Below are positions 19,791-34,105 of a stretch of DNA of 38,697 nucleotides, in pieces. Origin of the DNA: a virus. Made by a program: the position numbers and the translations under genes. Positions within the stretch are counted from its first letter, which is position 1, and every line of letters begins with the position of its first letter. Location of the stretch: IMG/VR virus record IMGVR_UViG_3300025120_000180, positions 1 to 38,697 of that record; one strand, given 5' to 3'. Below the pieces are notes generated by a model, which searched no databases, was not told the DNA's origin, and was given only the letters and a program-made list of their open reading frames with translations.

Positions 19791-20005
19791 TAAGAAAATT
19801 AATGCCTGTTCAAGATCATCCAGATCTTGCGAGAGATACAACAACTGGCATGATAGTTAATATAAATAAGGACAAGCATAGACAGCATATTGATATGATT
19901 GAACGAATAGTAAAAGATAAACAAGAGATAACTGATTTAAAATCTCAAGTTCAGAATATGGAAAAGATGTTGCACAAATTATTAGAGAACGGTTCAAATG
20001 GCTAA
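19787..20005 (+). CDS. Small coiled-coil protein next to fibre gene
   Basis: A 72-residue protein with N-terminal PVQDHPDLARDTTTGMIVN and a heptad-like charged helix (IERIVKDKQEITDLKSQVQNMEKMLHKLL). Small proteins with this layout (HPDL-x-RD-x-x-TG-x-I-x-N followed by a coiled coil) recur beside structural genes in marine T4-like phages. No function is known to me. The ATG overlaps the previous stop (ATGA) and the end overlaps the fibre gene by eight bases, which points to a co-translated structural or assembly partner, for example a fibre connector or chaperone. An exact TATAAATA occurs inside it at 19861-19868. Confidence 0.7.
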   Translation: MIRKLMPVQDHPDLARDTTTGMIVNINKDKHRQHIDMIERIVKDKQEITDLKSQVQNMEKMLHKLLENGSNG

Positions 20006-22127
20006 TTCAAAGATACCCGATTTAAATTTATCAGATACTCTTAATGCTAGCAGATTAAAATTTAATCAGCTACTCGATTCAATAGGTAATCTGTCATCAT
20101 TAACCACTACTTCTAAAGAAGTAACTGGAGCGATCAAAGAACTAGATGCTGAATTAGGAACCATATCAGCTGGTGCAATGGGTACAACAGCAAGTACAGT
20201 TAGTACCGCTATTGCTGAAATTGATACTCGTTTAGATTCTATTAATGCTACTTACAATAATGATAACCTAATTTTAAATAATCTAACTGTCAATGGCATT
20301 GCCAATCTAGATTCTACTAACTTGGTAGGTCAACTCGATGTTACTGGAACCATTACAGCTCAAAACTTTACTGTAAGCGGTGCCTTCACAACCACAGGTG
20401 CCACTAGAAACGTTGCTTCTTTTCAAGTTGTAAATGATGGAGTTGCTATTACTAATACTAACAGAGCTGGTCTTGCAGTAGACAGACCATCTGGAGACAG
20501 TGCTGTAGTACAATGGAATGAACTAGGAGACTTTTGGGAGATAGGTACTAACCAGACTGATGGTGGGTCCTCATCTGACTTGAAGCGGATTGCTAGACAG
20601 AATGATAGTGCAGTATTCTCAAATCTAATGCAAAGTGGCACTGGTGCTACTAGAATACCAGCCGGTACAACAGCACAAAGACCTTCGGCCGAACAGGGTC
20701 AGATACGTTATAATACTACAAATTCTTCATTCGAAGGATATAGTGGAGCTGCTTGGTCAGGTCTAGGTGGACTTATTGATGTTGACGGTGACACTAAAAT
20801 TATAGCAGAAAGATCTGCAAGTAATGATAGTGATACATTAACCTTCTTCACCGCTGGTGTAGAACGTCTCAGAATGAATGATAGTGGATCAACCTTTGCT
20901 ACCAATATTAGTGGTACAACTGCTTCATTCTCTGGTAACCTTGGTGGTACAACTGCTTCATTCTCTGGTAACATTACAATGACAGGTAGTGCCACAGTAG
21001 ATGGCAGAGACTTAGCGACTGATGGTACAAAGTTAGATGGTATAGAATCAAGTGCAACTGCTGATCAAACAGGCGCGCAAATAAAATCTGCCTATGAAGG
21101 TGAAGCCGATACAAATGCTTTTACAGACACTCTTCTTACAAAACTTAATGGTATTGCGACTAGTGCTAATAACTTCACGTTGCCTACAGCGGCGGCTGGC
21201 ACTAAAGGTGGTGTAAAAGTTGGTAGTGGATTAAGTATTAGTAGTGAAGTTCTTAGTCACACAGATACTTCTTCACAAGCATCTTCCAATAATAGTGGTA
21301 GAACATACATCCAAGATATCACACTTGATACTTATGGTCACGTTACTGGCATTGCCACAGCAACTGAAACAGTTGTTGATACTAATACGAATACAGAGTA
21401 TACAGGGGGTACAAATATTAGTCTCAGCGGTACTACCTTTAACTTAGATGCTAGTCTTTCTGGTATTTCTACTATTTCTAGTACGGGCGATCTTACCTTG
21501 AAACCCACTGGTGATGATATTTTTATGCAAGGTACAACAGCTACTGAGCAAATTAAATTTAATTTGTCTGATGGAGACCAAACTATTGAGTCTTCAGACG
21601 AACTTTATGTTGTTGGTCAAGATCTTATAATGGCCTCTATAACTGGTCACCTAGCTCTTAGTCCAGCTAGTGGCAGAATTAGATTTTATGACAATGAAGG
21701 AAATGCCAACAGGCTTGGGACTCATAAGGCAAGTATTGATGTATCCTCTGATGTAACTGGTGACTTAGTTATCTTTACTGGGACTGATGGTGCTCATTCG
21801 GGAACAAAATGTGCCACATTCGCTGGCGATGACCTAACAGTTGAGGGTGATGTAAATTCAATATCTGATATCCGCACAAAAGAAAACATTGTAACAGTTG
21901 AGGGTGGCTTAGATCTAGTATCACAACTACGTGGTGTATGGTATAATAAGATTGACCATGACGATCGCAAAGTTGGTGTGATTGCTCAAGAAGTAGAAGA
22001 AGTTCTTCCAGAAGTTGTTAACACTGATGGAGATGGTATGAAGTCTGTTGACTACGGTAAAATGGTCGGTGTTCTCATTGAAGCCATTAAAGAATTGAAA
22101 CAAGAAATAGAAGAATTAAAGGGTTAA
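19998..22127 (+). CDS. Tail fibre protein with C-terminal S74 intramolecular chaperone
   Basis: This 709-residue protein is mostly Ser/Thr/Gly-rich fibre sequence, including SGTTASFSG-type repeats and a GTDG/FTG beta region. The N-terminal 90 residues contain LKFNQLLDSIGNL and a predicted helical region. Residues about 615-709 are a Peptidase_S74 (endosialidase-type) chaperone domain: SISDIRTKENI with Ser623 and Lys628 of the autocleavage dyad, then GVIAQEVEEVLPEVV and the long helix LIEAIKELKQEIEELKG. In this family the chaperone trimerises the fibre and is then released by cleavage before the Ser, here leaving 622 residues. It is a good candidate for a receptor-binding or distal fibre. It overlaps the previous gene. 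Confidence 0.85.
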   Translation: MANSKIPDLNLSDTLNASRLKFNQLLDSIGNLSSLTTTSKEVTGAIKELDAELGTISAGAMGTTASTVSTAIAEIDTRLDSINATYNNDNLILNNLTVNGIANLDSTNLVGQLDVTGTITAQNFTVSGAFTTTGATRNVASFQVVNDGVAITNTNRAGLAVDRPSGDSAVVQWNELGDFWEIGTNQTDGGSSSDLKRIARQNDSAVFSNLMQSGTGATRIPAGTTAQRPSAEQGQIRYNTTNSSFEGYSGAAWSGLGGLIDVDGDTKIIAERSASNDSDTLTFFTAGVERLRMNDSGSTFATNISGTTASFSGNLGGTTASFSGNITMTGSATVDGRDLATDGTKLDGIESSATADQTGAQIKSAYEGEADTNAFTDTLLTKLNGIATSANNFTLPTAAAGTKGGVKVGSGLSISSEVLSHTDTSSQASSNNSGRTYIQDITLDTYGHVTGIATATETVVDTNTNTEYTGGTNISLSGTTFNLDASLSGISTISSTGDLTLKPTGDDIFMQGTTATEQIKFNLSDGDQTIESSDELYVVGQDLIMASITGHLALSPASGRIRFYDNEGNANRLGTHKASIDVSSDVTGDLVIFTGTDGAHSGTKCATFAGDDLTVEGDVNSISDIRTKENIVTVEGGLDLVSQLRGVWYNKIDHDDRKVGVIAQEVEEVLPEVVNTDGDGMKSVDYGKMVGVLIEAIKELKQEIEELKG
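20911..20972 (+). repeat. Two-copy tandem repeat, 33-base period, in the S74 fibre
   Basis: The 29-base unit starting GTGGTACAACTGC occurs at 20911-20939 and 20944-20972 with no mismatch that I can see. It encodes GTTASFSGN twice (11-codon period). Confidence 0.9.
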
Positions 22128-22131
22128 ACCT

Positions 22132-22824
22132 ATGGCATTTTTAAGCAACGGAGTCAACATACAACAGGGTCTCAGCGGCAGTGGCTGGGCAGGTTATAGT
22201 TCAGCCCCAGCTGGCACGATTAATTATATTTCAGGTAATTACTATTATCATAATACCACACAACATGCTGGTGGATCTGCTGTTGGAGGATATGCTATCC
22301 CTCTAGGAGTTCGAAAGGTAACATTAACAGTTCATAATTGGAACCTAAATACAGGTTCAATGGATCCGTGGGAAGTTGGCTTGATGATAACAACTGGGTC
22401 GAGTACCCAAACTAGTGGTTATTATGGTCAGCATCAGTTGCATGATGGTAATGCCAACACTGCAAATAATGCCACCCCGCCAGCATCACACGTAAAATAT
22501 ACTTCTTCTACTGCCATTAGAGTACCTTGGGGTCAGGCTGGTTTTGCTACAAATTTGACCATGGAATGTAGAAGAATGACCGCGTGGACTGGAATTGCAC
22601 CAAATCTGGCAACAGAAACAGCAAACGCAAGGTGGAATATAAATTACTGGGGTACCACGGGAGCCGCAGGTAATGCTGCAGGTACCAATGTTTATATGTT
22701 CGAGGGTCATTTTGTTCAAACAGCATTGAGTGGTGGATCCATTCGTGGGTTTCAACTTAAAACACCCAATAGTGTCAACACTACATTTACTTTTGACAGT
22801 CTTTCTGTTCATTGGGATTTTTAA
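22132..22824 (+). CDS. Glycine-rich protein of unknown function, possible fibre tip or adhesin
   Basis: I do not recognise this 230-residue protein. It is Gly/Asn/Ser/Thr/Trp/Tyr-rich and low in Lys and Glu, with a beta-sandwich-like alternation (VRKVTLTVHNWNLNTG, WEVGLMITTGSSTQTSGYYG). It ends VNTTFTFDSLSVHWDF, a typical terminal beta strand. It has no signal peptide or membrane segment. It lies four bases after the S74 fibre gene and just upstream of the late box and the tetrad-repeat gene. That position is compatible with a receptor-binding tip or decoration protein, but this is inference from context. Confidence 0.6.
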   Translation: MAFLSNGVNIQQGLSGSGWAGYSSAPAGTINYISGNYYYHNTTQHAGGSAVGGYAIPLGVRKVTLTVHNWNLNTGSMDPWEVGLMITTGSSTQTSGYYGQHQLHDGNANTANNATPPASHVKYTSSTAIRVPWGQAGFATNLTMECRRMTAWTGIAPNLATETANARWNINYWGTTGAAGNAAGTNVYMFEGHFVQTALSGGSIRGFQLKTPNSVNTTFTFDSLSVHWDF

Positions 22825-22874: not shown

Positions 22875-25800
22875 ATGGCAACTCCGTTAAAAATAAAAGA
22901 CAATGATGGAAACATCCAGGAACTAACTTCGGCTGATGAAAACTATGTTTCATTCCAAATTGGGTTACATTTATCTGTAGGAGATTCTGCAGAAGTTGGT
23001 TCTCTTAATAGAATTACTCAAGGTACAAATATTGGTGCGTTTAGTAATACGTTTTTTAATGAGGCTGTTGGAACACATCCATCCACTGCAATTTCTACTG
23101 GTACAACAACTACAACTCTCTATCAAACTACAGGAACCGCTGCAGAGACTGATTCTGATACGTTCTCACCACTCATGTGGACAGACTCTGCATCAACAAC
23201 CGGCTTTCAACAAATGCCAACAGCTAATTTAAACACAGCTGTTGATAGCTATCTCACAAAAATATTTACAAATGAATATCCAGGTTCCTATAGGTTAGCT
23301 GTAAGTGCACCAAGTAGTGATTGGACTGCCCAACAGAATGCGTTTACTGATACAAGAACAGATGGAACTTCTATAGTATCAAAGCTCTGGAAGAGAACTG
23401 GTGGGACAGAACCTACAGCAGCAGTACCAATATATGTGTCGGATAGTGCCGATGGTGGTGGCATTAAACTTACAGGAATGACTGAACGTAAGATCAAATT
23501 CTCATTTGGCCAAAGAGCCAAGACTAGAATAATGGCATCTGGTATTGGTACTCATCAGTTACGTTCGGCTACCGATGGAGCTCCTACAGCTACAGGAACA
23601 TGGGTTGCTAGAGGAACAGCAACTGATACTAAGCAACAGACAGCCCAACAAAATTTTACTCGAGACAGTACAAGTAACTTTCAACAAAACTATACTCGGT
23701 TATATACAAGTAATTACGCTACAAATTATACTAAGATTTATCAAATTACATATCAAAATCAGTATACTTCTAATTACACAAAATCATATACTCAAGCATA
23801 TCAAAATGAATTCTCGCTAACTAATTACACAGCGTCATATGCAACGACTTTTACAGCACCATATCAAAAAGAATTTGATGCTGGATATGAATCTGCCCAG
23901 TATCTATTAACTTTTGCTGGTACATATGATCCAAATTATATTAGAAACTTTGTGGGTAATTTTGCTTCTGGTTTTGCAGGAACTGCGTTCAATACTGGAT
24001 TTGCTGGATCTGCATACCAAGGTACATACACTGGTAATTACGTTCCTAATTATTTAAGGAACTTTGCAAACACATTTCAAGGGGCGTTTGTTGGCCCGAC
24101 ATACAACCGGAACTATACTCGGAACTACACCAGTAATTATGTCCGTAACTACACTGGTAATTTTGCTCGAGCCTTTAGCAGTAGTCCAGTAAACTATGTT
24201 GCAACTGATGTTAACACTGTATTTGTTGGAGTTGAGGCTGCGTTCGTGAATGCCGCAAGAGGATCGGGTCAGGGTGGTCCAGGTGCTAACTCACCAGTAG
24301 ATCTAAACCGCGGTATAGGTGGATATGTTAATGCGTCAGGTTCTACGGGTCAACCAGGTGGATCGGTCAATTATGTTGGTCTAATATATTACCGAGGCCG
24401 CGGAAGAAGTGCGTACTTTGCTGGCCATCATTTTTACTTAAATACATACACAGGACGGTTGGGACAGCCTGACTTTGGAAACTCAGATGCAGCTCATGGT
24501 ATAATGGCTTATTTACGTATGTATTTGGGTACAAAGCCATTCTCTGGCCAACAAGTCCAATACGGTGCAATTGCAATTGGTACACCATATTCCGGTGCGA
24601 CATATACGGGAGGATATCCTTTTCAATCGGTATGGTCATATGCTGCAACCATTGGTACTCTTATTCCTGGATGGTGGAGTGGACCCGCCGGCGGCACCAC
24701 CCCAGCAGCTGTGGGAATTGTAATAACTGCACCTTTTCAATCATCAACAACAGGTACTGTAGTTGGTGGTGCATATGTGGGCCCAACTTATCCTCCTTGG
24801 GGCACAAATGTCTTTACGTCTTTAATGTCCATGGGTGGAGGCCTTGCCAGTGAAGCAGGACCATTACACTCAGGTCCTCAAAATGGTATACCGCTTAGCG
24901 CGATGAGTAATACCGGTACTGGCCGAGTCGATCTATTGGGTATATATGAAAATGCAGCTATTACCACCTTGCAGACCGCTCAAAATTACGTTTCTACCCA
25001 AACTCGATTTTATGTGGGTCCAGCGGCGGCAAGATACAACCTAAACTACAGCCCAACAGGGTCGATAAATCCTTATCGCAGCGATTGGTGGTATTTCAGA
25101 AGTTATACACATGCAGTAAACCTTGCCGTGCCTACAACCAGTTCGGATCAATATTACCAAAGGTGGAGTGGTGCAACATATGAAGCGCAAAACACTACCA
25201 CGAATGAGCCAGGCCAGACAACGCCCTATATTGGTACCGGTGATTACTTTGTCGGCAGTTATCAGGGCCCAGGTAGTGTCCAAGCCGGCAACCCTGGGGG
25301 TTGGCCAGGAGCAGGCAATGGATGGGCTGGAAGTTTATACACTGGGGGAGTTCCTCCTGGTGAAACACAGGCACAGACAATAGGAGGATATCTAGGGTTT
25401 CAATCTTTCAATGCGTCTAACGTAGGTATAGGCAATCGAGGTACACATACCTCGTGGCATGTTTTACAAGTTTATGCTCATGTTGACGAAAATATACAAC
25501 CAGGCAACTCTTGGGCTTACTATGCCGATCAATTGAATATGTGGGCAATGGAACGTAGCGCGTGGTGGGTTGGTGCACCGGCATTGCAGGAACATTTGCG
25601 ACCAGAATATTACATGGAATTAGGATCAGGGTACCCTGGCGGTGGGTCCGCGCATACAACCAACGATGGCCTTGGACGAGTAAGTGGTAGCTCCCTCACA
25701 GGTAACGCCATGCATGGCGGTGCATTGGCAAATACTGCTCATGGGTTCACAACACAAATCCGACCAGCAGCTATTATGTTAGGATTTTATGACGGATCCG

Positions 25801-26432
25801 GAGTTGGTGTTGATGGAGCCACATTTCAAGGTCCTGGAGGTAGTTATGTGCGAAACTATACCAGAAACGATACAGTAGATTTTGTCCGTAATGATACAGC
25901 ATCTTTTGTTACGGGATATGTTCCCAACTATGTAAGAAACTTTGATAATACCTTTGTGGGTGGATTTCAAGGGACTGCAATAGCTGAAGTATATCAACAA
26001 TCCGATTACGTTCCTAACTATATAAGAGCATATACTCCAAATTACATACGGAATTACACAAGAAATGTTGATACCGGATATCAAGGCGCGGGCATAGTTG
26101 AATATTATGATAAACAGAACTATACTGCTAACTATGTAAACACATACACTAGCAACTATGTAACAGCGTACACTGGAGCATACGATATAGCATACTTAGC
26201 TACTTACACAAGTAATTATGAAATAGTATATGATACATCATATCAAAACGAGTTTGTTGGAGATTACACAGCTGATTATGGCGCTGGTTATGAGAGGGTA
26301 TATACTAAAGAGTTTCAAGCACAATATCTAACCGACTATCTTGGAAACTATGAAGGCAATTTTGAAGGGTTGACGATACAATCGTCAAGTGAAACAAATG
26401 AGACGTATACGTTATACGTTCGAATATCTTAA
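22875..26432 (+). CDS. Large adhesin-like virion protein with aromatic tetrapeptide repeats
   Basis: A 1185-residue protein in four parts. Residues 1-255 (MATPLKIKDNDGNIQELTSA and onward) resemble virion-attachment modules of marine myovirus structural proteins. Residues about 260-440 form a repeat with Tyr or Phe at nearly every fourth position (YTRL-YTSN-YATN-YTKI; YNRN-YTRN-YTSN-YVRN). Residues about 440-988 are a Gly/Pro/Trp-rich, non-repetitive domain encoded by DNA more G/C-rich than its surroundings. Residues about 990-1172 return to the tetrad repeat (YVPN-YIRA-YTPN-YIRN) before a short Ser/Glu/Thr tail. Ten Asn-Tyr-Thr tripeptides lie in the repeats. I infer an adhesive fibre with the central domain as head and the repeats as stalk or glycosylated arms. 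The function is not established. Confidence 0.65.
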   Translation: MATPLKIKDNDGNIQELTSADENYVSFQIGLHLSVGDSAEVGSLNRITQGTNIGAFSNTFFNEAVGTHPSTAISTGTTTTTLYQTTGTAAETDSDTFSPLMWTDSASTTGFQQMPTANLNTAVDSYLTKIFTNEYPGSYRLAVSAPSSDWTAQQNAFTDTRTDGTSIVSKLWKRTGGTEPTAAVPIYVSDSADGGGIKLTGMTERKIKFSFGQRAKTRIMASGIGTHQLRSATDGAPTATGTWVARGTATDTKQQTAQQNFTRDSTSNFQQNYTRLYTSNYATNYTKIYQITYQNQYTSNYTKSYTQAYQNEFSLTNYTASYATTFTAPYQKEFDAGYESAQYLLTFAGTYDPNYIRNFVGNFASGFAGTAFNTGFAGSAYQGTYTGNYVPNYLRNFANTFQGAFVGPTYNRNYTRNYTSNYVRNYTGNFARAFSSSPVNYVATDVNTVFVGVEAAFVNAARGSGQGGPGANSPVDLNRGIGGYVNASGSTGQPGGSVNYVGLIYYRGRGRSAYFAGHHFYLNTYTGRLGQPDFGNSDAAHGIMAYLRMYLGTKPFSGQQVQYGAIAIGTPYSGATYTGGYPFQSVWSYAATIGTLIPGWWSGPAGGTTPAAVGIVITAPFQSSTTGTVVGGAYVGPTYPPWGTNVFTSLMSMGGGLASEAGPLHSGPQNGIPLSAMSNTGTGRVDLLGIYENAAITTLQTAQNYVSTQTRFYVGPAAARYNLNYSPTGSINPYRSDWWYFRSYTHAVNLAVPTTSSDQYYQRWSGATYEAQNTTTNEPGQTTPYIGTGDYFVGSYQGPGSVQAGNPGGWPGAGNGWAGSLYTGGVPPGETQAQTIGGYLGFQSFNASNVGIGNRGTHTSWHVLQVYAHVDENIQPGNSWAYYADQLNMWAMERSAWWVGAPALQEHLRPEYYMELGSGYPGGGSAHTTNDGLGRVSGSSLTGNAMHGGALANTAHGFTTQIRPAAIMLGFYDGSGVGVDGATFQGPGGSYVRNYTRNDTVDFVRNDTASFVTGYVPNYVRNFDNTFVGGFQGTAIAEVYQQSDYVPNYIRAYTPNYIRNYTRNVDTGYQGAGIVEYYDKQNYTANYVNTYTSNYVTAYTGAYDIAYLATYTSNYEIVYDTSYQNEFVGDYTADYGAGYERVYTKEFQAQYLTDYLGNYEGNFEGLTIQSSSETNETYTLYVRIS
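23653..24190 (+). repeat. N-terminal aromatic tetrapeptide repeat array (coding)
   Basis: Twelve-base periodic coding repeats give [YF]-x-x-x units, many ending in Asn, with a few one- or two-residue slips (for example AFNTG and FVGPT). Seven Asn-Tyr-Thr tripeptides occur here. Confidence 0.85.
25843..26390 (+). repeat. C-terminal aromatic tetrapeptide repeat array (coding)
   Basis: The same [YF]-x-x-x period as the first array, separated from it by about 1.65 kb. It includes YVRN, YTRN, FVRN, YVPN, YIRA, YTPN, YTSN and YQNE units and three Asn-Tyr-Thr tripeptides. The last third becomes more acidic (YTAD, YEGN). Confidence 0.85.
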
Positions 26433-26437: not shown

Positions 26438-26443
26438 ATGAAC

Positions 26444-26917
26444 ATGAAAAAAGAATGGGCACATCCATTTTGGGAAAATGCAGCAAAGGACAGATTAACC
26501 GTACGGTTAAATATTACACATGATGATGGGTCGTATTCTACAACTGTTGCCAAAGTTTCCAAGTTTGATGATGAAGGAAAAATTACTTCAGATTATGAAG
26601 AAGTACTTGCACAAAATGGGCTAGATAAGATTGAGCAGTTTACTAATGAACGACTGGAAAGACATAAGCAGCAGCGAGAATCAGACATTAAGAAACAGCA
26701 AGAAAAAAATGAATCTAAGCGACTTGAAGATTTATTTAATAGTAAGTTACAAGTGTTTGAAATTGAAGAAATTAAAGAGTCTACTAATAGAAAATTAAAA
26801 TCAAAAATACGCAAAGCAAAGAACCAAGTTGAAATGACTGCGTATGCTACTATACTATTAATGGAGATTATGAATGAGTCTGAAGCAACCCCAGCAGAAC
26901 CAGAAGAATCCAAGTAA
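26444..26917 (+). CDS. Charged helical protein of unknown function, possible fibre assembly factor
   Basis: About 157 residues from the preferred ATG at 26444; a longer start at 26438 adds two residues. The N-terminus is a small beta region (DRLTVRLNITHDDGSYSTTV). The rest is strongly charged and helical, with a coiled-coil-like run from FTNERLERHKQQRES through EIKESTNRKLKSKIRKAKNQ, and it ends in an Ala/Pro/Glu tail. No domain was recognised. It follows the adhesin gene by 11 bases and its end overlaps the first glycosyltransferase by 44 bases. Position and composition would suit a fibre chaperone or a partner of the cassette, but that is inference. Confidence 0.7.
   Translation: MKKEWAHPFWENAAKDRLTVRLNITHDDGSYSTTVAKVSKFDDEGKITSDYEEVLAQNGLDKIEQFTNERLERHKQQRESDIKKQQEKNESKRLEDLFNSKLQVFEIEEIKESTNRKLKSKIRKAKNQVEMTAYATILLMEIMNESEATPAEPEESK
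26495..26510. repeat. 16-bp perfect palindrome
   Basis: TTAACCGTACGGTTAA is fully self-complementary and lies about 50 bases inside the helical-protein gene. It could be a protein-binding site or chance. Confidence 0.8.
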
Positions 26918-27728
26918 AGGGTTTGTTACAGTTGCTACGCAAACTATCCATTTTATTATAGGCGCGCAAAACTTAGCTGAATCAATTCTAGATTATGATG
27001 AAGAAGCTCGGGTAACATTATTTACAGAACAGCATTTCATTGACGACCCAGAGATGCAAAAATATTTTACTCCGTTTGAATATGTTCTTCCCACACCTGG
27101 CGATCATAAAAGAGAGAAAATGTATGGGATGGCTAACTCTCCATACGATTTAACTTTTTATATGGATGCTGATATTCAGATCGATCATGAAGATATAACC
27201 AAGGTGTTTGATCACCTTGATGATGGATCGGATATGGTATATGTAAACCTTACGCGCGAGGGTGCCAGACATTTTGCTGAATGGAATTGGGGACCTAATT
27301 TGTATGATAATGGGTTCAAAGGCGTCCCAGATCATTTAGCACACTGTGGAGGAGTTGCTTTATATGATATGCGTAACCCATTAGTAAAAGAATTTATGAG
27401 TGATTGGTACACGCTATATTTAAAGCAAGAATCCCGTAAGTGGAATCCTCCAGAGTTTGATTATATCAAAAAAGGAAATTTTAGACAGTGGGATCAACTA
27501 ACTCTTTGGTGGTTGATTTATCACTCTCCTAAATATAGATCAATAAAGTGGAAGTTCTTTGATGATAATTATCGTTGGAACTACTTCACTTCATTTGGAT
27601 TTAATAAGGATGGCACTCACAATTGTCATTTAATGGATCCTAAAAGAGACTATTGGAAAACAACTCCCCATCCTGTTGTAATTCATTATTCAAGTTGGAT
27701 GGATAAAGGTAACAAAGGATTTTTATGA
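26874..27728 (+). CDS. Glycosyltransferase-like protein, GT-A fold
   Basis: A 284-residue protein with a nucleotide-sugar transferase pattern. It has an early beta-alpha unit (FVTVATQTIHFIIGAQNLAESIL), then KREKMYGMANSPYDLTFYMDADIQI, in which Asp98-Ala-Asp100 forms a DxD metal/nucleotide-sugar motif. HLAHCGGVALYD (about 155-166) and QWDQLTLWWL (about 205-214) follow, positions where GT-A enzymes bind acceptor and place a catalytic acid. A C-terminal HYSSWMDKGNKG resembles the GT8-type end motif. It acts in the cytoplasm, as no signal or membrane segment is visible. Donor and acceptor are unknown. GGAG lies seven bases before the ATG. It overlaps both neighbours, indicating a co-translated cassette. 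An inactive GT relative cannot be excluded. Confidence 0.7.
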   Translation: MSLKQPQQNQKNPSKGFVTVATQTIHFIIGAQNLAESILDYDEEARVTLFTEQHFIDDPEMQKYFTPFEYVLPTPGDHKREKMYGMANSPYDLTFYMDADIQIDHEDITKVFDHLDDGSDMVYVNLTREGARHFAEWNWGPNLYDNGFKGVPDHLAHCGGVALYDMRNPLVKEFMSDWYTLYLKQESRKWNPPEFDYIKKGNFRQWDQLTLWWLIYHSPKYRSIKWKFFDDNYRWNYFTSFGFNKDGTHNCHLMDPKRDYWKTTPHPVVIHYSSWMDKGNKGFL

Positions 27729-28447
27729 TGGCACAGATACCAGTAAGAGATATAGATTTACAAAATTCAGAGTTTTTAGGATATTTAAACGATTACAAAG
27801 ATATTATTCTCGAAAGAGAACCAGGTGATGATACACCACTTATTGCAAAGTCAAATCATATGCTTCCCCGTTCAAATGTTGATGATAGTGAAAGATATGT
27901 TTCAGATGAATACCTAAAAAAGATTATGGATATGGGGAGAGCCCACGACGGCTTTCCTGAACAGCTAGTTGGGTTTGCTGGTATGAAACACGATCAGGAT
28001 GTTAATTTTAGCCGTGATCCTGTAAGGTCAAAAATAATAAAAGATGCTGCAAGTGAGTTAAACACAAAGCTAATGTCATTTCTTTCATGTAGAAATGTTG
28101 CTCTTACCGCTTGTTATCCTCCAGGTGGTTGTATATCATGGCACAACAATGCCAATGCGAAAGGGTATAATATTCTTATAACTTATTCTGAAACTGGTGA
28201 TGGTTGGTTTGATTATTGGGATTGGGAAAAGAAAGAGAGAGTACGTATACAAGATATTCCTGGTTGGCAGGCTAAGATGACTTATTTTGGACCATATGAT
28301 GATGAATATGGCCAACCAGCGGATCCTGAACAAATTTGTTACCATGCATGTTATACAGATTGTTATCGTATTACTTGTTCTTTTGTGTTTGCAGAAGCAG
28401 ATGAATTCTGGGAAGAAGTTATAGATGATCTTGAAACAAAATGTTAA
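27725..28447 (+). CDS. 2OG-Fe(II) oxygenase-like protein (double-stranded beta-helix)
   Basis: A 240-residue protein whose C-terminal half has the layout of 2-oxoglutarate/Fe(II) dioxygenases. CYPPGGCISWHNN supplies His140, followed by GYNILITYSETGDGWFDYWD; CYHACYTDCYRITCSFVF then supplies His207 and the Arg215-x-Thr217 pair expected to bind 2-oxoglutarate. The usual HxD reads HNN, so residue 142 is Asn instead of Asp. That could mean altered chemistry, a relocated ligand or a non-catalytic protein. I recall similar unnamed proteins in marine T4-like phages. It overlaps the glycosyltransferases on both sides (4 and 23 bases). Possible roles include hydroxylating a residue or sugar. Either of two adjacent ATGs (27725, 27728) could be the start. 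Confidence 0.62.
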   Translation: MMAQIPVRDIDLQNSEFLGYLNDYKDIILEREPGDDTPLIAKSNHMLPRSNVDDSERYVSDEYLKKIMDMGRAHDGFPEQLVGFAGMKHDQDVNFSRDPVRSKIIKDAASELNTKLMSFLSCRNVALTACYPPGGCISWHNNANAKGYNILITYSETGDGWFDYWDWEKKERVRIQDIPGWQAKMTYFGPYDDEYGQPADPEQICYHACYTDCYRITCSFVFAEADEFWEEVIDDLETKC

Positions 28448-29126
28448 CATAGTATGTGTTTGTGTAGGTGACAAATATAATAAAACACATGTAAACAGAC
28501 TTTATAAAATGGTAAAGAGACACTGCTCTTTACCATTTTCTTTTTATTGTATATCCGATCAACAGCAAGATGTCAACACTATTTTTATAGACCAGTCTCT
28601 TGATCTTGAATCATATTGGTGGAAAATGGTGTTGTTCAATCTTGATTGGGACAATATAACACTTTACCTTGATTTAGATGTTGTCATACAGAACAACTTT
28701 GACTATGTGTTTGTTGAAGCTAATGAAACTCCTAGCTATTGCTTTTTGTTAAATAGTGATGATCTTGGTGAATATAATCCATATGACGGGACTCCAGATA
28801 ATATACTTGTTATTCCTTCTACAGTACTAAATACATCGGTGATGTTGTTTAATCCTACTATGATGAAAGATGTATATACTAAATTTATAAATGATGTTGA
28901 CTATAACATAATTACATACTATGGAGTAGATAGGTTTTTATATCACAACTATAATAAATTTAGATATTTGCAATTCGGTAAAGATTGGTATCATAGAGCT
29001 AAAGGGGTACGTCTACCTCATCATGAAGATCAATATAATCTTATTCATGATCCTGATTGTACGTTTTGTATTCTATCACAATGTCCTGACAAATATTACC
29101 AAGGATTGGAGAAATATTTCTTATAA
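28425..29126 (+). CDS. Second glycosyltransferase-like protein, GT-A fold
   Basis: A 233-residue protein with the GT-A layout in a shorter form. It has NIVCVCVGDKYNKTHVNRLY and MVKRHCSLPFSFYCISD at the N-terminus, then SYWWKMVLFNLDWDNITLYLDLDVVIQ with Asp83-Leu-Asp85 as the DxD motif. NTSVMLFNP (about 136-144) and YYGVDRFLYHN (about 165-175) occupy the acceptor and catalytic regions. Sequence of the form KxVxRLYxMVKRHxxLPFxF is familiar from phage and bacterial glycosyltransferases of this type. It overlaps the oxygenase gene by 23 bases. A perfect 14-bp hairpin lies within codons 28-39. Its stop overlaps a TATAAATA box. Donor and acceptor are unknown. Confidence 0.72.
   Translation: MILKQNVNIVCVCVGDKYNKTHVNRLYKMVKRHCSLPFSFYCISDQQQDVNTIFIDQSLDLESYWWKMVLFNLDWDNITLYLDLDVVIQNNFDYVFVEANETPSYCFLLNSDDLGEYNPYDGTPDNILVIPSTVLNTSVMLFNPTMMKDVYTKFINDVDYNIITYYGVDRFLYHNYNKFRYLQFGKDWYHRAKGVRLPHHEDQYNLIHDPDCTFCILSQCPDKYYQGLEKYFL
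28506..28544 (+). terminator. 14-bp perfect hairpin plus T-rich tail inside the second glycosyltransferase gene
   Basis: Left arm AAAATGGTAAAGAG (28506-28519), loop ACACTG, right arm CTCTTTACCATTTT (28526-28539), then C and a T run. It has the form of an intrinsic terminator but lies within an apparently intact coding sequence, so it may instead be an mRNA stability element, an attenuator or a coincidence. Confidence 0.5.
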
Positions 29127-29162: not shown

Positions 29163-29519
29163 ATGTCGCAATACGAAGATATAACTATAGATCAAGGTGC
29201 TGACCAAACCATCCAATTGCAATTAACAGACAAAAACGGTGCAATTAAAGATTTGCAGGGATACACAGCCTCTGGTCAAATTCGTAAAACATACTCTTCA
29301 ATTGATTCTGATGCCGTTACTTTTTCTTCTCAAATTGCATCACCTGCAACTTTAGGAATTGTAAATTTAACTCTAACTAATACTGTAACTTCCGCTATGA
29401 AAGCTGGTAGATATGTGTATGATGTAGAGCTTGCGGTGACAGATAGTGCTTCAAATACACTTGTAGAAAGAATACTAGAAGGACAGATCACTGTGACTCC
29501 TTCGGTTACTAGGACCTAA
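29163..29519 (+). CDS. Small Ig-like/BppU-N-like virion protein
   Basis: A 118-residue all-beta protein: DITIDQGADQTIQLQLTDKNG, DLQGYTASGQIRKTYSS, IVNLTLTNTVTSAMKAGRYVYDVE and an end ILEGQITVTPSVTR. This is the familiar small Ig-like domain of many phage structural operons, related to the N-terminal domain of Lactococcus phage BppU-type proteins. It is likely a virion or fibre-attachment component. It opens the last fibre block and is followed nine bases later by the first large fibre gene, whose start has a good AAGGAG. The exact partner is unknown. Confidence 0.72.
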   Translation: MSQYEDITIDQGADQTIQLQLTDKNGAIKDLQGYTASGQIRKTYSSIDSDAVTFSSQIASPATLGIVNLTLTNTVTSAMKAGRYVYDVELAVTDSASNTLVERILEGQITVTPSVTRT

Positions 29520-32134: not shown

Positions 32135-34105
32135 ATGGCAGATAAAGACTTTAAAGTCAAAAATGGATTAATAGTAAAAGATAGTGCCACTATAGGTATT
32201 GATCTTACTGTTGCTGGAAGTGCAAGTATTACTGGAAATGCAGCTGTAACAGGTACTGTCACAAGTACCTTTACTGGTAATCTAACAGGTAATGTTACTG
32301 GTACAACTAGTAGCATTGCTAATCATTCAACTACAGATTTGGCTGAAGGTAATAAGCTATATTATACAACTGTCAGAGGAGACAGTGACACTCGAGCATT
32401 GGTTGACTCTGCTTATGTTACTTTAAAAACTCCTGAATATGTTAGACTAACACCAGTTCAAACTCTTACAAATAAAACTCTAGTAGATCCTAAGATTGAT
32501 TCTACTAATGTTTATGGTATACAATATGGTGGTCTATCTATAAACGTCGATGGACAATTGGGGGATAGTAATCAATCAGTACTAAACTTCACATCAGACA
32601 GTGCTGGTAGAGAAGCTGTATTAAGTTTAGGGGTCAGCGGTCAACATTCAGCAGCGATAGGGGTAATAGGAACCTCTGCTTCTGGCACATTAGTATTAGG
32701 AATGGAAAACACTAATACTGGATTACATATTAGAAATAATGTGGGTAAGGCTCCATATGATCTAGATGGTGGTACCAGTCTTGTAGAGATGACTGCTGCT
32801 GGTGTATTAGATGTTAAAAATGAGACAGAAGCGGCTAGTAAAACTACAGCGGCTTTAGTTATTCGTGGTGGCCTTGGTGTTGATAAGAACATCAGAGGGC
32901 AAGATATTCTAGCGCAAGGTAATGTCCAAGCACTGACGGGTGAACTCAAAGGAACTCTTTCTGCAGCATCTCTAGGTACAAGGACTACTGCTAACCTACC
33001 AGAAGGTTCAAACTTATATTATACAAACGCAAGAGTTGATTCGTATATTAATGCTAGTATTCTAACAACAGATGTTTCTGAAGGAACCAACTTATATTAT
33101 ACAAAAGCTCGTGCTGATTCAGATGCACAAGCTGCTATTACCATAAACGATGGTGGTGGAGATGGGTCATTAGTAATTAATAATGCAACTGGAGTCATAA
33201 CATACACGGGACCAAGCGCTGCAGAAGTTAGAGCGCATTTCTCTGGAGGAACAGGTGTAACATTCAATGCTTCTTCAGGTGCCATTAGTATTGGCCAAGC
33301 TGTAGCAGCAACTGACTCGGTAAACTTTAATGCAATGAACATTGCAGGTAATATGGTTGTATCTGGCAACCTAACCGTTTTAGGTACCCAAGATGTCCAA
33401 TCACAATCAGAGTTGTCGGTTACCAATCCATTTATTAAAGTAGCAGATAGTAACTCTGCTGATACTGTTGATATTGGTGTTGTTGGTAGATATGGTGAAG
33501 ACTCTGGTGGAACCACAGTAATTAAGCGTACAGGATTTATTCGAGACGCTACAAATGGTGAATGGTATGTCTTCGACGGTTTAAAACAACAAGGAATTGA
33601 TAGTGGAACTCCAACAGATACTACTATCAATATTAATGGACCAGGCTTTAACCTTCCCACTTGGAACTTTGGTAAGTTACGAGGATCGTACCTAGGATTT
33701 GATTCTGACTTTGCTGCATTCTCTTCTAACTATACTGTTCAAGATTCTAGCTTTACAGCTGTAAATGCTGGTAGATATGCGGTAAATACAACAGACGGAG
33801 TTGTCACAGTAACACTTCCAGCTACACCAATCACAGGACATTATGTAAGACTAATTGACGTAGCTAATTTCACGACCAACTCAGTTGTTTTAAATAGAAA
33901 TGGTAACACAATTGAAGGGTTCTCTGATAACTTTGAATTAGACTTAGGTCAGAGTATTATCGAATTAATATACATAAATAACAATTGGCAACTGTATAGT
34001 TCAATTGGACAACGAGGCCCAGCTGGTCCAAAAGGCGATTCTGCAGATGTTGCAACCTTTAGTACTCAAGCGCAAGCTATATCATTCGCAGTGGCATTAG
34101 GATAG
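32135..34105 (+). CDS. Tail fibre-like protein with short collagen-like segment near the C-terminus
   Basis: A 656-residue fibre protein. The N-terminus (KDFKVKNGLIVKDSATIGID) is followed by SITGNAAVTGTVTSTFTGNL-type strands, one TLTNKT unit (near residue 110), three LYYT-x-AR units and the shared GDGSL...GVITYTGPSAAEVRAHFS module. Residues about 410-560 include a substructure with WYVFDGLKQQGIDSG. The C-terminal 100 residues hold VTVTLPATPITGHYVRLIDV and NNWQLYSSIG, a fibre-tip fold resembling the end of the protein at 11833. They are followed by four Gly-x-y triplets (GQRGPAGPKGDS) and a short Ala-rich tail. CGAGGA precedes the ATG. The receptor is unknown. Confidence 0.75.
   Translation: MADKDFKVKNGLIVKDSATIGIDLTVAGSASITGNAAVTGTVTSTFTGNLTGNVTGTTSSIANHSTTDLAEGNKLYYTTVRGDSDTRALVDSAYVTLKTPEYVRLTPVQTLTNKTLVDPKIDSTNVYGIQYGGLSINVDGQLGDSNQSVLNFTSDSAGREAVLSLGVSGQHSAAIGVIGTSASGTLVLGMENTNTGLHIRNNVGKAPYDLDGGTSLVEMTAAGVLDVKNETEAASKTTAALVIRGGLGVDKNIRGQDILAQGNVQALTGELKGTLSAASLGTRTTANLPEGSNLYYTNARVDSYINASILTTDVSEGTNLYYTKARADSDAQAAITINDGGGDGSLVINNATGVITYTGPSAAEVRAHFSGGTGVTFNASSGAISIGQAVAATDSVNFNAMNIAGNMVVSGNLTVLGTQDVQSQSELSVTNPFIKVADSNSADTVDIGVVGRYGEDSGGTTVIKRTGFIRDATNGEWYVFDGLKQQGIDSGTPTDTTININGPGFNLPTWNFGKLRGSYLGFDSDFAAFSSNYTVQDSSFTAVNAGRYAVNTTDGVVTVTLPATPITGHYVRLIDVANFTTNSVVLNRNGNTIEGFSDNFELDLGQSIIELIYINNNWQLYSSIGQRGPAGPKGDSADVATFSTQAQAISFAVALG
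33137..33245 (+). repeat. Shared fibre module, copy 2
   Basis: Codes for ITINDGGGDGSLVINNATG and VITYTGPSAAEVRAHFS; closely similar to copy 1 at 31581-31685, including a nearly identical GGAGTCATAACATACAC core. Confidence 0.8.

Follow-up and report, generated by a model that had tools for sequence, protein, structure and literature searches.

What kind of protein does a phage encode when tyrosine or phenylalanine recurs at nearly every fourth residue over two long blocks, and what holds these blocks together? The question is raised by an open reading frame (ORF) at 22875-26432 of the IMG/VR virus record IMGVR_UViG_3300025120_000180, of which we analyzed a stretch of 38,697 bases, hereafter the window. 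An earlier interpretation made from the letters alone (the sequence-only reading) had described the product as an adhesin with two aromatic arrays around a glycine-rich head; the ORF listing returns exactly the same coordinates, with ATG as the start codon. We put at roughly 0.5 the probability that the protein serves a marine Kyanoviridae-like myophage as an adhesin of the tail or baseplate, with a beta-prism-like base, antiparallel aromatic-tetrapeptide arms as a stalk and a variable tip. The sequence-only reading missed the closed base domain with its single-loop insertion, as well as the linked enzyme-like genes. The elements of the ORF are listed below, with positions in nucleotides and amino acids (aa).

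22875..26432, + strand: array adhesin ORF, 1185 aa (ORF listing; family through tblastn and locus scans)
22875..23192, + strand: base domain repeat 1, aa 1-106, beta-alpha-beta-hairpin (AlphaFold2, confidence mostly 85-97; hhalign)
23193..23456, + strand: base domain repeat 2, aa 107-194, same element order, closed 5-residue hairpin turn (AlphaFold2; hhalign)
23457..23666, + strand: base domain repeat 3, first part, aa 195-264, ending in strand 243-263, where the insertion starts (AlphaFold2; hhalign)
23658..24209, + strand: array 1 or outgoing arm, aa 262-445, 184 residues, overlapping the end of repeat 3 (lag-4 test)
24210..25829, + strand: Gly-rich head, proposed tip, aa 446-985, irregular [YF]xG motifs (composition and motif test)
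25830..26354, + strand: array 2 or returning arm, aa 986-1160, 175 residues (lag-4 test)
26355..26429, + strand: C-terminal strand, aa 1161-1185, ending ETYTLYVRIS, predicted to complete repeat 3 (AlphaFold2; profile score)

The protein belongs to a large, widespread and unannotated adhesin-like family of marine myophages with an unusual closed-loop design. Searching 50,697 phage records with tblastn returned one homologue, the 3,347-aa "hypothetical protein" CDS0201 of Phage C48C1 (OQ984149, Kyanoviridae), which is 33% identical to the window protein over aa 3-432, that is, base domain and first array. In IMG/VR, 26 loci were found with the C48C1 base domain and others through a YxxN DNA pattern. 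Neither Pfam nor PHROGs holds a family matching the array ORF, PDB sequences gave no convincing match, and a literature search found no paper on the phage or on repeats of this type; profile searches thus leave the arrays outside any described family, so the outcome named as refuting the sequence-only reading, arrays of a well-described family with known fold, did not arise.

Base domain and insertion point

AlphaFold2 (AF2) was run on single chains of two members, the window protein and the shortest member (L200, 401 aa). In the window model the predicted local distance difference test score (pLDDT) is mostly above 85 at residues 1-264 and 95-97 for the last ~15 residues, and about 30 across nearly all residues between these two ends of the base domain; L200 gives the same picture of a confident base domain and a low-pLDDT insertion. 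Long base strands are predicted at 243-263 and 1161-1183 in the window protein and at 245-275 and 367-399 in L200, and both models place the strand preceding the insertion and the C-terminal strand in one domain, formed in the window protein by residues 1-264 and the last ~25. The three base repeats have an identical order of elements by DSSP. Profile comparison with hhalign relates repeat 2 to repeat 3 extended by the C-terminal 15 residues (96.8%, E 2.5e-10), with a score of 51.4 when these residues are included and 42.6 when they are not, and aligns the added strand (TYTLYVR) to the strand that ends repeat 2. The similarity of repeat 1 is lower, both to repeat 3 (E 6e-5, 65%) and to repeat 2 (E 2e-3, 14%).

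Because the C-terminal strand completes repeat 3 in models and profiles alike, the two AF2 models and the profile comparison support a closed base domain in which arrays and head would form a single long insertion that takes the place of the hairpin turn in repeat 3. The layout of array, head and array proposed from the sequence survives insofar as two arms of near-equal length surround a variable centre, but it is enclosed by a conserved 264-residue N-terminal domain and the C-terminal strand; the two arrays are therefore not independent units, since both termini close one domain and everything between them is one loop in a beta-hairpin. The insertion measures about 900 residues in the window and from 117 to about 3,060 residues in relatives.

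VIA-align ranks beta-prism-type domains highest for both models (2qp2, Z 6.9; 3tow, Z 6.2; MPEG1, Z 4.7), so that a beta-prism is the likely fold of the base, on Z-scores that are middling and all below 8. Pfam gave no relevant match at E 1 among 25 members, beta-prism and MABP domains sharing little sequence, and a profile of the N-terminal domain found no useful match among PDB sequences. Phage tail proteins were prominent in neither VIA-align nor Foldseek; a T4 baseplate match (5iv5_AF, Z 2.5) was too weak to be used. With the MABP and beta-prism domains of MVB12B (3tow), Plu-MACPF (2qp2) and MPEG1/perforin-2 the base shares a three-fold repeat architecture and a weak structural similarity, but it differs in lacking a Pfam match, in its far longer and repetitive insertion and in its setting among phage tail genes. 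The MABP domain of MPEG1 extends an unusually long beta-hairpin (PMC6753088); by analogy, the array base and its insertion may function as that hairpin does, on a larger scale, membership of the MABP family itself being unproved.

Arms, tip and alternative architectures

The four-residue period noted in the sequence-only reading is borne out. Array 1 (aa 263-445) holds 42 aromatic residues, whose successive spacing is exactly 4 in 35 of 41 cases and 5 in five; aromatic pairs four residues apart (lag 4) number 35, against 9.3 ± 2.3 expected from 20,000 shuffles (maximum 20). Array 2 (aa 1011-1175) has 29 such pairs, against 7.5 ± 2.2 (maximum 16). Many units do end in asparagine, which occupies 36% of fourth positions in the window. 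Over 4,630 units the family consensus is [YF][TAVS][GR][ND], with G (67%) or R (20%) at position 3 and N (44%) or D (22%) at position 4, and the longest unbroken runs exceed 100 units. No DNA-level tandem repeats were found within the ORF, so the tetrapeptide period is maintained at the protein level. The idea that asparagine at position 4, followed by Y and S/T, forms sequons (N-x-S/T) was dropped, S/T following in 37% of cases after N and in 38% after other residues.

The intervening head, 17% glycine, had been called non-repetitive. This holds for the period, as lag 4 is not enriched in the middle part of the ORF (ratio 1.07), but [YF]xG motifs are (18 versus 9.5 ± 2.7 expected, p 0.0016), and the nearest relatives carry different centres of the same style, filled with irregular YxGP motifs. 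The head thus looks like array units spread apart by loops and would not be wholly unrelated to the arrays; tblastn and pattern scans returned no relatives of the head itself. In a pair close to the window (L164 and L165) the base is 94% identical and the insertion 39% over aligned residues, whereas close pairs in the C48C1 clade keep insertion identities of 80-89%, which limits fast change of the insertion to some lineages, the window's included. Such an insertion would look like a receptor-binding part under diversifying change, one of several possible explanations; together with the position of the gene in the tail region, its greater variability relative to the base favours the adhesin or fibre interpretation.

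The symmetry of the arms was assessed from the position of the longest non-array stretch (gap of at least 60 residues) in 35 clusters, with 300 within-protein segment shuffles. Mean arm asymmetry is 0.27, against 0.51 ± 0.05 in shuffles, none of which was as low; under the strictest thinning (26 clusters) it is 0.33 against 0.51. Relatives that have a large non-array tip therefore tend to carry it halfway along, between arms that match each other over lengths from 210 to 880 residues; pairs observed include 210/269, 319/303, 400/398, 422/423, 594/602, 812/883 and 1539/1275. In the window, the arms measure 184 and 175 residues with head limits (446-985) set by hand. The returning half is the less basic of the two in 42 of 60 clusters (p 2e-5). 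Given a topology in which both ends of the insertion lie on one hairpin, and given the midpoint symmetry, antiparallel pairing is the best reading of these data: outgoing and returning arms most likely run side by side as a stalk.

Under this model, the base would be a compact domain of three tandem repeats resembling a beta-prism, of which repeats 1 and 2 end in short beta-hairpins while the turn of repeat 3 is replaced by about 900 residues. The chain would leave through an aromatic tetrapeptide arm, form the Gly-rich tip and return through an arm of similar length to the C-terminal strand that closes the domain. Lying antiparallel, the two arms would make a beta-rich stalk with the aromatic ladders as its repeating contact, and the stalk would present the variable tip to receptors at a distance from the virion.

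Several observations weigh against this model. The automatic gap finder gave window arms of 470 and 171 residues, scored as an asymmetric case, because a spurious ladder splits the head and places the gap inside it. Some members are clearly asymmetric (L109, L205, L223, L235 and L185), C48C1 has several large gaps, and the symmetric members come mostly from one clade, that of C48C1, whose close pairs also keep similar insertions. Mirrored composition along the two arms was not found (mean r -0.13 for Arg), and with arms at a pLDDT of about 30 their pairing is not visible in AF2. As for the base, Z-scores below 8 might reflect merely a common arrangement, and Foldseek found nothing significant for the models (best E 0.43).

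Alternative architectures must account for the same arrays. Phage fibres are usually trimers, and AF2 runs on a monomer often fail on intertwined trimers; both points count in favour of arrays that form an intertwined homotrimeric beta-helix like the C-terminal needle of T4 gp5 (gp5C), with two tetrads per strand and three base domains at the attachment end. The unit [YF]-x-G-[ND] also fits the hydrophobic-x-Gly-Asn/Asp turn register of the triple-stranded gp5C helix, which has Val at g, a polar residue at h, Gly at a and Asn/Asp at b (PMC3004832). Yet gp5C is an open-ended needle of octapeptides with no return strand, whereas the window repeats every 4 residues rather than 8, the signal at lag 8 does not exceed that at lag 12 across the family, and a chain that returns to close its own base domain fits a three-start helix badly; we regard the trimeric helix as unlikely.

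A solenoid, which the sequence-only reading had offered as a possible fold, would make each array a monomeric beta-solenoid of ~12 residues (three tetrads) per coil, with the aromatic ladders outside and the head as a loop domain. Modules of 12 residues occur in L093, C48C1 and L200, and a narrow core could be packed with the small residues of position 2, but 8, 20 or 28 is favoured in other members and 12 does not stand out in the window. The family sequences reveal no constant count of tetrads per coil, a universal three-tetrad coil was rejected as not seen in all members, and AF2, which usually models regular solenoids well, produced none and gave the arrays no fold, which leaves this architecture unsupported and quite improbable. 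The same low pLDDT, with a Gly-rich, repetitive sequence of variable copy number, would suit arms that are flexible, largely unstructured Tyr/Gly-rich sticky tethers, their spacing a product of repeat expansion only. Against such tethers stand the matched arm lengths and a four-residue register kept over hundreds of divergent units with no DNA-level tandem repeats in the window, and we give them little credence.

Most phage fibres known so far are trimers with an open end, and their receptor-binding part lies at the C-terminus. If the closed-hairpin model is correct, a fibre that starts from a base domain and comes back to it, and whose arms stay similar in length as they grow, would follow a different building principle, and the closed loop would offer a natural route to exchanging tips with base and terminus untouched. 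It would also put a name to a family of unannotated proteins found widely in ocean viruses, indicate which of their proteins recognises the host, and suggest dedicated enzymes by which phages modify their own fibres. The array protein may be an unrecognised kind of host-binding fibre; that it embodies a new building principle, rather than another variant of tail fibre or adhesin, has a minority chance. Tentative, and on balance doubtful, is the fullest version: a viral fibre class in which one chain of aromatic tetrapeptides, at most about 3,000 residues long, makes a closed antiparallel hairpin that grows from one beta-prism loop, carries a fast-changing tip and is hydroxylated and glycosylated by enzymes of its own block, as a phage counterpart of enzyme-modified collagen-like stalks.

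Family members and related repeats

Window and C48C1 share the traits of the family: homologous base domain, arrays, C-terminal ETYTLYVR strand and downstream gene block. CDS0201 differs in its insertion of about 3,060 residues, into which several domains are inserted and which includes Arg-containing 8-mers (YTRTRVSA). At about aa 2010-2155 of this protein, ~75 residues are directly duplicated almost without change, which points to recent recombination between repeats of the array gene. When the phage records were queried with the C48C1 base domain and with the distant members L109 and L047, no further base-domain homologue turned up, repeat matches falling on S-RIM2 alone. Two tandem paralogues of the array gene occur in many genomes, and short proteins of 157-285 aa, mostly array and with no base domain, precede the large array gene at L150:5195-5731, L150:5728-6582 and L144:5274-5744. 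A genome-contig scan located the full module on a phage-like contig (L259) filed under a Bifidobacterium breve metagenome-assembled genome (MAG), where it is probably mis-binned; a distant member (L067) had no match among plasmids.

Another fibre protein of the window, at 32135-34105, contains [VL]TGN tetrapeptide runs, an aliphatic counterpart of the YTGN arrays. Such repeats, also present in the cyanophage fibre protein SWTG_00067 of S-RIM2, keep the tetrad register with aliphatic replacing aromatic residues. The S-RIM2 "structural protein" was rejected as a homologue, the [VL]TGN repeat being the sole common feature, and no array-family base domain was found in the S-RIM2 genome.

Linked genes and genomic setting

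Downstream of the array gene lies a block of genes, including enzyme-like ones with overlapping reading frames:

26438..26917, + strand: conserved 159-aa module protein, possible assembly factor (homologue here in nearly all loci with enough sequence)
26874..27728, + strand: putative GT-A-type glycosyltransferase, invariant DxD (alignment; sub-cut-off Pfam match; linkage)
27725..28447, + strand: oxygenase-like protein, invariant WHxN..., conserved K, H and R, putative function (alignment; linkage)
28425..29126, + strand: second glycosyltransferase-like protein (DLDVV), in part of the family, no Pfam match
29163..29519, + strand: L-shaped-tail-fibre-assembly-like protein (phrog_1084 / phrog_3304; PHROGs E 1.5e-25 and 7e-20), conserved downstream

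The linkage, like the midpoint symmetry, is a matter of sequence statistics. In almost every relative with enough sequence, the array gene is followed by genes for a ~150-aa protein, a DxD glycosyltransferase-like protein and an oxygenase-like protein. With the oxygenase-like gene as query in IMG/VR we kept the best 80 of at least 583 loci, which were thus selected for resemblance to the window gene and not at random; in 72 of these 80 the upstream flank contains an array ORF, nearly always as the direct neighbour. Of the remaining eight, six run off the contig end, in L186 the array-protein end is separated by other genes, and L228 is devoid of the module. Other structural genes lie between array gene and enzyme-like block in two related loci, L186 and L204, so the block is not absolutely contiguous with the array gene. 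Among phage records both enzyme-like genes occur in C48C1 only, as the array gene does; C48C1 carries two further oxygenase-like copies beside tail-tube and helicase genes, and hence this family is not linked to arrays alone. A Bdellovibrionales MAG contig (L258:2282-3633) has an oxygenase-like gene followed by a protein weakly similar to the 159-aa neighbour (BLASTP E 6e-4, a single comparison), which suggests that the pair may exist without an array gene too.

In the putative glycosyltransferase, D98 and D100 of the DxD motif are invariant in 15 members, and the match to Pfam Glycos_transf_2 (E 5e-4, 20.4 bits) falls below the 23.3 cut-off. Assignment of the product of 27725-28447 as a 2-oxoglutarate (2OG)-Fe(II) oxygenase was unsupported, its invariant motif being HxN rather than HxD and motif order the sole resemblance; it had no Pfam, PHROG or PDB profile match, and hhalign against cyanophage 2OG proteins gave 0.2%. 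The glycosyltransferase-like and oxygenase-like proteins would probably modify the arrays, and the ~150-aa protein would probably assist folding or assembly. Repetitive fibres modified by enzymes are known from mimivirus collagen (PMC9546862). There, a hydroxylase and a glycosyltransferase of the virus itself act on a repetitive structural protein; the mimivirus proteins differ in being triplet collagens of unrelated sequence, and modification in the window is a prediction.

The tail genes of the window are T4-like, with a baseplate tube cap, several baseplate wedge and hub proteins and, further on, virion structural genes; a fibre gene with an S74 chaperone occupies 19998-22127. From this position among baseplate and fibre genes, we infer that the array protein is part of the virion. 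Just upstream of the array ORF lies the gene of a 230-aa protein (22132-22824), unmatched in PHROGs, Pfam and the phage records, which may be part of this fibre locus. The baseplate wedge protein at 876-1964 has an inserted stretch at about aa 148-218, apparently a mobile domain, to which PHROGs offers matches in many larger virion proteins (phrog_460, 701, 5342).

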